From Schaalia turicensis ACS-279-V-Col4 (GTDB lineage: Bacteria; Actinomycetota; Actinomycetes; Actinomycetales; Actinomycetaceae), in the NCBI RefSeq assembly GCF_000296505.1, contig NZ_JH815210.1:186001-250000 (forward strand): a stretch of 64,000 nt of DNA, given 5' to 3'. This document shows positions 45,590 to 47,028 of the stretch, in pieces (the stretch's first letter is position 1; each line of letters opens with the position of its first letter). The position numbers and the translations under genes are program-made. The notes under the pieces are model-generated. The model was not told the DNA's origin. It did no database searches and was given only the letters and a program-made list of their open reading frames with translations.

Positions 45590-45638
45590 TGTGTTTCTTT
45601 CTTCGCTATCCTGATTCGCCCGGTTATCGGTGGGCGTC

Positions 45639-45694
45639 GGGTCGAAACACGTTGAGCCGTGGCGAGGTTTCGACCCTTTCAGGCCTCGTCACGG
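45639..45694 (-). promoter_or_regulatory. leuA transcription attenuator (mutually exclusive stems)
   Basis: On the minus strand, CCGTGACGAGG (45694-45684) pairs with CCTCGCCACGG (45667-45657), one mismatch, as the antiterminator. GGGTCGAAAC (45676-45667) pairs perfectly over 10 bp with GTTTCGACCC (45648-45639) as the terminator/sequester. The second stem's left arm lies within the loop of the first and shares one base with its right arm, so both cannot form. No U tract follows. Confidence 0.75.
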
Positions 45695-45726
45695 CAAAGA
45701 AGCAGGAGCATCCATTCTCGGCTCAT
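45679..45726 (-). CDS. leuA leader peptide (15 aa, four consecutive Leu codons)
   Basis: MSREWMLLLLCRDEA, then TGA. Codons 7-10 are CTC CTG CTT CTT (45708-45697), a run of four Leu codons 120 bases upstream of leuA. A ribosome stalled on them would leave the following antiterminator arm (45694-45684) free; one that reaches the stop would cover it. TACGCT seven bases before the ATG (45734-45739) suggests a leaderless mRNA. Classic leucine attenuation; peptide product itself need not be stable. Confidence 0.85.
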   Translation of the reverse strand: MSREWMLLLLCRDEA

Positions 45727-45733
45727 GCCTCGT

Positions 45734-45739
45734 AGCGTA
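45734..45739 (-). promoter_or_regulatory. -10 box of leuA leader transcript
   Basis: TACGCT on the minus strand, seven bases, then the leader peptide ATG at 45726. No Shine-Dalgarno site before the leader ATG. Confidence 0.45.
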
Positions 45740-46062: not shown

Positions 46063-47028
46063 TCACACCGAGGTGATGGTTGTTCCCACTTCACCGCTCA
46101 GAGCTCTATCAGCATCCGCCAACGCGCAAATGACACCACGGCGAACCGTACCAGCCGGGGCCTTCGATACGAAGTCAACGATTGCTTCAACTTTGGGGCG
46201 CATGGAACCTTCAGCAAGTTCCCCCGACTCAATCAGAGCACGCCCTTCATCCAAAGAAATGTGGTGAAGCCAGTGTTGCATTGGTGTTCCCCACCCCGCA
46301 GCAACCGCCGGAACTGCAGTCAGAATAACCAGAGCAGAGGCTCCCAACTCATCAGCCATGAGAGCTGCGCTTCGATCCTTGTCGATAACCGCGTCCACGG
46401 CTTTCATTCCATAGTCGGTGCGAATAATTGGGATACCGCCACCGCCTGAAGCGATGACGATGAAGCCGGCGTTTGTCAGAGCTTGAACCGCCTCAATTTC
46501 AACGATCCGATGTGGCAATGGAGAGGCAACATACTTCCTAAATCCACGCCCAGCATCCTCGCGGTACACGGATCCGGGCTCTTCCTTCATCCGCTGTTCT
46601 GCCATTTCCCGAGTCAGAAACTGACCGATCGGTTTAGTCGGGTCAGCAAATGCTGGATCATTGGGATCGACTTCCACACGAGTCAGAAGAGCGACTACTT
46701 TGCCGGAATATCCGCGCCTCGCCCCAGCCTCGTCGATTGAACGCACCAGGTGCTCGCCGATGTAGCCTTGGCTCATCGCAACCATCTCTGGAAGATCAAC
46801 GTCGGGCACACCGGGGTCAGCTGCAACGCCCAGTGAAAACGCACGCGTGATCTGACCAACCTGGGGTCCATTCCCGTGAGCGATCACAAGAGGGCCCGCA
46901 TCAGCCAAACTCACCAAGACTGGCGCAGCCTGACGCAACAGGTGCAACTGATCGTCGGGTGTCTGCCCTAGAGCATTACCTCCTAGAGCAACAACCGTCG
47001 CGGAGCTAGAAGAGTAATCGCTCTTCAT
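46063..47028 (-). CDS. arcC: Carbamate kinase
   Basis: 321 residues of the amino-acid-kinase fold. VVALGGNAL at 12-20, HGNGPQVGQI near 51-60, DPTKPIGQFLTREMAE near 128-143 and ASGGGGIPI near 200 are the carbamate-kinase landmarks. It transfers phosphate from carbamoyl phosphate to ADP, or the reverse. There is no arginine deiminase (arcA) or ornithine transcarbamylase (arcB) nearby; instead it starts one base after the era stop in the phoH-ybeY-corC-era operon, which is unusual. Confidence 0.9.
   Translation of the reverse strand: MKSDYSSSSATVVALGGNALGQTPDDQLHLLRQAAPVLVSLADAGPLVIAHGNGPQVGQITRAFSLGVAADPGVPDVDLPEMVAMSQGYIGEHLVRSIDEAGARRGYSGKVVALLTRVEVDPNDPAFADPTKPIGQFLTREMAEQRMKEEPGSVYREDAGRGFRKYVASPLPHRIVEIEAVQALTNAGFIVIASGGGGIPIIRTDYGMKAVDAVIDKDRSAALMADELGASALVILTAVPAVAAGWGTPMQHWLHHISLDEGRALIESGELAEGSMRPKVEAIVDFVSKAPAGTVRRGVICALADADRALSGEVGTTITSV

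Follow-up and report, generated by a model that had tools for sequence, protein, structure and literature searches.

What kind of control element precedes leuA in this actinobacterium, and does it act on transcription or on translation? In the window (the whole 64,000-nucleotide stretch of Schaalia turicensis DNA that was analyzed), the element sits directly 5′ of leuA (Table 1). Direct reading of the leader on the minus strand (codons at 45726-45679: ATG AGC CGA GAA TGG ATG CTC CTG CTT CTT TGC CGT GAC GAG GCC TGA) confirmed the run of four Leu codons, CTC CTG CTT CTT at 45708-45697, that the original prediction had reported as part of a leucine-responsive attenuator. The nearest match to this leuA is the locus of Actinomyces culturomici (86% identity in the best segment, with all 584 residues matched). 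The gene upstream of the leader (46063-47028, minus strand) reads as a carbamate kinase, as recognized from its sequence.

Table 1. Observed and predicted features of the leuA leader region, in window coordinates.
Feature	Position	Strand	Basis
-10 box TACGCT	45734..45739	(-)	sequence; 7 nt 5′ of leader ATG
Leader ORF MSREWMLLLLCRDEA, predicted leaderless, 15 codons	45679..45726	(-)	sequence reading and spacing in relatives
Four control codons CTC CTG CTT CTT	45697..45708	(-)	sequence and Leu-run codon counts
P1 5′ arm	45684..45695	(-)	pairing in window and alignment of relatives
P1 3′ arm	45656..45667	(-)	pairing in window and alignment of relatives
S2 5′ arm, within P1 loop	45667..45676	(-)	pairing in window and shuffles
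S2 3′ arm, completing H-type pseudoknot	45639..45648	(-)	pairing, alignment of relatives, shuffles
Predicted Leu-run partner (pairs with 45709-45699), base stem around pseudoknot	45605..45617	(-)	-28 to -16 from leuA; duplex -10.9 kcal/mol
leuA, 2-isopropylmalate synthase, 584 aa	43835..45589	(-)	start 45589; sequence and match to relative

We regard the identity of this region as the LEU element (Seliverstov et al. 2005, PMC1262725) as close to certain. That element was described upstream of leuA in Actinobacteria, with Actinomyces naeslundii among the genomes studied, and consists of a leader ORF with a Leu run, a two-helix pseudoknot, and a base stem that joins the Leu codons to the Shine-Dalgarno (SD) box of leuA, with an alternative hairpin built on that stem (PMC1262725). 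The window and the LEU element have in common the Leu-run leader ORF, the two-helix pseudoknot, leuA as the gene, and a parts list without a terminator. How the element acts has been unsettled ever since mutants were reported that failed to fit attenuation, according to the passages of PMC1262725 that concern them.

Elements of this kind are already known from a leaderless, terminator-less leader in Streptomyces lividans, a uORF in Mycobacterium abscessus, and leader peptides in Corynebacterium. The S. lividans leader leuL1, MRFGLLLLSCRGEGL, lies before leuA, is transcribed leaderless, and has no typical Rho-independent terminator; it resembles the window in having a leader before leuA and belongs to another lineage, and the available passages of the source do not mention a pseudoknot (PMC8079986). 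In C. glutamicum and C. diphtheriae, leuL has four consecutive Leu codons before leuA and is treated as an attenuator leader in the relevant excerpts of PMC4046766, PMC5784534, and PMC8709942, a likeness to the window in the leader. The ilvB uORF motif of Corynebacterium likewise has branched-chain codons in a leader ORF, with codon reading as the proposed sensor, but it differs from the window in its gene and in its terminator and antiterminator stems, as described in part of PMC10272879. In M. abscessus, a ribosome-protected uORF before leuA is recorded in a passage of PMC4974804. What the present analysis adds to PMC1262725 is the computed covariation between the Leu run and the SD, and the presence of the same core before leuC, leuB-ilvE, and a LeuA_dimer-like protein; the text of that paper contains neither leaderless starts nor leuC, leuB, or LeuA_dimer targets.

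The two helices of the window cross each other. P1 pairs 45695-45684 with 45667-45656 over 12 positions (11 pairs and one A/C mismatch) and takes in the first predicted stem (45694-45684 with 45667-45657), whereas S2 pairs 45676-45667 with 45648-45639 in the 10 perfect pairs that had been predicted. The only base in common is 45667; the 5′ arm of S2 is located within the loop of P1 and pairs with sequence past P1. With this topology, P1 and S2 form an H-type pseudoknot and are not alternative structures. The S2 score in the window was 26.0; 200 shuffled 3′ flanks averaged 15.0, and 2% of them reached the window score. Plain minimum free energy (MFE) folding of the window was not striking (z -1.39, with 18 of 200 shuffles equally good). 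A covariance model of the relatives found 45632-45712 on the minus strand at 56.9 bits (E 6.2e-10 over 231 kb), the window itself being one of the 49 training rows.

For comparison among relatives, 80 leuA loci plus the window (81 sequences) were parsed; 13 without a Leu run plus P1 and 9 with wrong or unclear parses were set aside, which left 59 loci. The covariance model was built on the 49 of these with a P1 loop of at most 25 nt, and model R1 covers the leader sequence and P1 only. In the alignment of these 49 loci (48 distinct rows), 89.8% of P1 cells were paired, and 6 of the 11 P1 pairs carried two-sided changes. For S2, such changes were seen in 9 of 9 pairs, but the share of paired cells was only 57.5%, a low value that arises in part because MAFFT fails to align all of the 3′ arms. 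Of the 59 parsed loci, 45 had an S2 of at least 6 bp; the other 14, including most Agromyces and Glutamicibacter loci, had 4-5 bp, and the 10 bp of the window are at the long end of the range. When S2 partners were swapped across the 59 loci, each locus's own pairing was the stronger (z -6.45; z -6.12 in the 15 nearest; controls +1.78 and -1.17). The corresponding P1 test was set aside as evidence, as the P1 arms had been picked by their own pairing. P1 is also conserved in sequence besides its pairing.

These results bear on the original claim that the two pairings compete, which does not hold: the topology is that of a pseudoknot, S2 covaries in the swap test, and both helices carry two-sided changes. 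Both of the pairings that a classical attenuator with two mutually exclusive hairpins would use are present in the window. We nevertheless consider such an attenuator highly improbable, as P1 and S2 cross with one base in common, two-sided changes occur in both across a single alignment, and terminator-like sites are rare (9 of 86 leuA leaders in the larger set of copies described below). Two candidate structures were rejected on these grounds, competing hairpins by the pseudoknot topology, and a terminator-type attenuator because S2 in the window is followed by no U tract, as had been noted originally, and because the helices are not alternatives. What stands of the predicted leucine-responsive attenuation is the Leu-codon leader before leuA; the classical terminator/antiterminator anatomy does not.

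The placement of the leader ORF is conserved along with the helices. The TACGCT box seven bases 5′ of the leader ATG, which had suggested a leaderless start, has its counterpart in 53 of the 59 parsed leuA loci, where TANNNT lies 6-7 nt 5′ of the in-frame leader start, compared with 0 of 59 and 3 of 59 for out-of-frame controls. In 47 of these 53 loci the stop codon falls 1-7 nt past the P1 5′ arm, and in 6 it falls 14-17 nt past; in the window it starts two bases past the arm. From comparison of the aligned sequences, we conclude that the leader, the placement of its start and stop codons, P1, and S2 belong to the element as a family. The promoter spacing fits a leader transcript that is predicted to start at the leader ATG.

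The model also recovered the element in three loci dropped from the parsed set, L002, L016, and L074 (E <1e-7), and weakly in L029, L069, and L077 (E 0.0065-0.014). In the class of one relative, 281 of 296 genomes were matched (E <= 1e-4); the figures were 44 of 61 for the family of the nearest relative and 46 of 396 for a phylum sample (both at E <= 1e-3). These counts may include training genomes, and the gene behind a match was checked in the fetched copies only. Nearly every sampled genome of the class is matched. The window copy has no match in Rfam 15 at the gathering score, the only hit near the element being CRISPR-DR10, far below its own gathering score. A known Rfam family was rejected on this basis. 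The Leu-codon leader, with its leaderless promoter spacing and without a terminator, is kept in most of the relatives compared, contrary to the refuting outcome named in the original prediction, though one group of near relatives is without the element. No element was found in the 3 kb before leuA at L003-L005, L008, L011-L014, and L017-L019 (Schaalia odontolytica, Trueperella pyogenes, and several Actinomyces), nor did the model match anywhere at E <= 1 in the genome that contains the S. odontolytica locus. The element seems to have been lost or replaced in this S. odontolytica/T. pyogenes group. The upstream stretch of L033 consists of N letters and was not judged. In the near relative L002 (the same locus as L085), the fold is kept and the Leu run is eroded (leader MRNVRLELMRRDGA).

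The base stem was analyzed by the same exchange of partners. Across the leuA family, the Leu run paired better with the SD of its own leuA than with swapped ones (z -6.29, n = 59; z -4.79, n = 15), and five controls ranged from -1.49 to +1.03 (n = 59). Repetition on the 86 leuA leaders of a later set, in which L081-L084 duplicate loci of the first set and further overlap is possible, gave z -4.60 (control -0.82). When each locus was compared with its nearest relatives, the own pairing was better in 39 of 59 cases with a gain of 2.02 kcal/mol; because the controls also gained (0.22-0.94 kcal/mol, three of the four themselves at p 0.002-0.022), shared ancestry or composition could account for up to roughly half of the effect. 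A control that paired the Leu run to the leuA start reached z -2.11 among the 44 loci that are more distant. The Leu run also beat swaps with its own P1 3′ flank (z -3.45, 59 loci), which matches no described helix and gave z -1.23 in the later set (all classes, n = 131). A synonymous-codon test of the Leu run against the SD was null (0.49 and 0.45, compared with 0.5 expected), and the base-stem swap test was not significant for leuC leaders (n = 13) or leuB leaders (z -1.05, n = 27).

Folding calculations on the 59 loci gave a related picture. With P1 and S2 held and the Leu run occupied together with the preceding 15 bases, mean computed SD openness rose from 0.40 to 0.57, with an increase in 55 of 59 loci. 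Masks of equal size in a longer frame gave an openness of 0.49 when the Leu run was masked and 0.40 when the upstream bases were masked (higher with the former in 42 of 59). When the P1 5′ arm was covered as well, the difference was not significant (mean 0.44 compared with 0.40, the free state being lower in 35 of 59; p 0.056). In the leuA family, it is as if the Leu codons were an anti-SD, with the SD uncovered by a stalled ribosome, an arrangement that the covariation fits. This pairing supports a translational route in the family.

SD masking in the window itself is weakly supported. The base stem that PMC1262725 describes, and that the family supports here, corresponds in the window to a duplex of 45709-45699 with 45617-45605 that ends 16 nt 5′ of the leuA start and is no better than swapped duplexes, 47% of swaps being as good. 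It enters the MFE structure when P1 is enforced and the S2 bases are kept unpaired. An alternative pairing, UUCUUUGC:GCGAAGAA at 45606-45599, has -9.0 kcal/mol. The computed SD openness of the window is already 0.73 when unoccupied and is 0.82 when occupied.

Based on these results, we propose, with a probability of about 0.6, that the window leader is a LEU element that controls leuA as a codon-reading, leaderless leader, with a base stem that would mask the leuA start and a translational control step. The leader probably senses leucine, judging by its codons. Transcription would start at or next to the leader ATG, and a ribosome would load directly on the 5′ end of the RNA. When charged tRNA-Leu is ample, the ribosome would pass the Leu codons and depart, the RNA would then form the P1/S2 pseudoknot together with the base stem between the Leu codons and the region before the leuA start, and leuA translation would be low. 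When leucine is short, the ribosome would wait on the Leu codons, the base stem would be blocked, and the leuA start would open so that leuA is made. Within this account, we infer the transcription start, the stalling, the direction of control, and the translational rather than transcriptional step.

The original prediction had offered Rho-dependent or translational release as an alternative to a terminator, and this proved the better direction, the Leu run/SD pairing of the family backing the translational of the two. Release of RNA polymerase by Rho before leuA under leucine sufficiency, from the same leader and with no intrinsic terminator, we hold to be possible yet rather unlikely. It would suit the missing U tract in the window and the small number of terminator-like sites in leaders of other genes too (leuB 3 of 29, leuC 0 of 13, and dimer 1 of 5, beside the leuA count given above), and a review among the three Corynebacterium sources places C. 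glutamicum leuA under leucine transcription attenuation in the part that treats it. The leuB-type leaders, whose codon run has no significant covariation with the next start, a median of 138 nt beyond P1, would suit transcriptional control of those targets. The Leu run/SD covariation of the leuA leaders is not expected from Rho-type attenuation alone.

A second copy of the element is present in many genomes, and the genes behind these copies bear on the nature of the sensor. There were 116 matches in 56 genomes, from which the 60 lower-scoring copies were fetched, so the gene classes are not a census. The later set comprised 137 copies, or 135 without two duplicates, and consisted largely of lower-scoring copies from genomes with two or more. 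The gene behind these 135 copies was leuA in 86, leuB in 29, leuC in 13, a small protein in 5, and nothing recognized in 2. The later swap tests used 131 of the 135, leaving out the 2 copies without a recognized gene and 2 leuB-type copies without a microprotein start.

The control codons differ between these classes. The last six codons of the leader contain a mean of 3.16 Leu codons before leuA and 3.00 before leuC, and three or more Leu are present in 81 of 86 and 13 of 13 leaders, respectively; Ile or Val is also present in 11 of 86 leuA and 1 of 13 leuC leaders. In leuB leaders, the means are 1.31 Val, 0.93 Ile, and 1.31 Leu, Ile or Val occurs in 28 of 29, and no leader contains three Leu (for one of the 29, L217, the frame used was probably wrong). 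The gene ilvE follows leuB in 25 of the 29 leuB-type loci, within the fetched stretch, and IlvE makes all three branched-chain amino acids (Val, Ile, and Leu). The leuB start lies at most 0.7 kb from the element in 24 of 29 loci and further off in five (L089, L144, L162, L194, and L217). Between the Val/Ile/Leu leader and leuB lies a conserved microprotein ORF, whose motif was found in 23 of 29 loci (for example, at 199-307 past the element start in L215); its product has ∼20-45 residues, being longer from the furthest start, and ends near ALDRRDNGG. A protein search with one microprotein returned 17 relatives, all unnamed or hypothetical and without Pfam domains. Because this ORF is nearer to the element than leuB, it may be the direct target of the leuB-type leader.

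The five small proteins, at L129, L132, L135, L137, and L207, follow Leu/Val leaders and resemble a free-standing LeuA_dimer domain, the allosteric and dimerization domain of LeuA. PF08502 was found above the cut-off in two (7.3e-6 and 2.4e-6) and below it in two more (0.053 and 0.044), and the fifth was assigned by similarity. Three of the five genomes also have a leuA with its own Leu leader, and 13 of 31 listed genomes carry a leuA leader plus a leuB or dimer leader. The codon-swapped copies point to two genes for which we found no described role, the microprotein before leuB and the free-standing LeuA allosteric domain. A search of part of the literature, judged from titles, abstract beginnings, and opened passages, turned up no recognizable paper on leaders of this type ahead of leuB, leuC, or a LeuA_dimer protein.

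The core itself stays largely the same. An S2 of at least 6 bp is present in 78 of 86 leuA, 27 of 29 leuB, 4 of 5 dimer, and 5 of 13 leuC leaders; against shuffles, S2 stood out on average in the leuA and leuB leaders, gave mixed results in the dimer group, and was weak in leuC, where an average of 31% of shuffles were as good. Leaders with leaderless-type spacing (5-9 nt) number 75 of 86 for leuA, 13 of 13 for leuC, 19 of 29 for leuB (9 nt in most), and 3 of 5 for the dimer group. From these data, we favor, at somewhat better than even odds, the view that the LEU element is an instance of a modular Actinomycetes sensor. It would have a fixed leader-ORF/pseudoknot core and control codons swapped per gene (Leu for leuA and leuC, Val/Ile/Leu for a conserved microprotein-leuB-ilvE unit, and Leu/Val for the LeuA_dimer-like protein), with a ribosome reading the codons beside the pseudoknot and neither terminator nor antiterminator. 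Because the SD link is unsupported for the leuB-type leaders, the output step may differ between targets.

The codon-swapped copies serve as a natural experiment by which codon reading can be told apart from protein binding. PMC1262725 favors the pseudoknot as the binding site of a putative regulatory protein, the leader ORF being secondary. Its proposal drew on the phylogenetic pattern of one helicase-domain protein and on reported Streptomyces mutants with unchanged regulation: its conclusion states that Leu-codon mutations in Streptomyces leave regulation unaffected, and a study it cites is said there to have found some effect of S. coelicolor leader mutations that is inconsistent with classical attenuation. 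The sequence conservation of P1, in addition to its pairing, would also suit a bound protein. Yet protein binding requires neither a change of codons with the gene under a constant fold nor a fixed ORF start and stop, both of which are observed, and we judge it improbable. Codon reading is favored over protein binding because the codons follow the product of the target gene while the fold stays, often within one genome. That the ribosome reading these codons is the sensor is thus argued for by the match of codon and product and argued against by the reported Streptomyces Leu-codon mutants.

The Leu run is also unusual in its choice of codons. CTT makes up 43% of the Leu-run codons of the 59 leaders (91 of 211), compared with 3.1% of the Leu codons in leuA genes (77 of 2459). 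The preference is not explained by pairing energy, because the synonymous-codon test was null; reading by a minor isoacceptor, a notion from general knowledge of codon use, is a possible reason for it. The run ends with CTT in 51 of 58 leaders, and the window has CTT CTT at 45697-45702.
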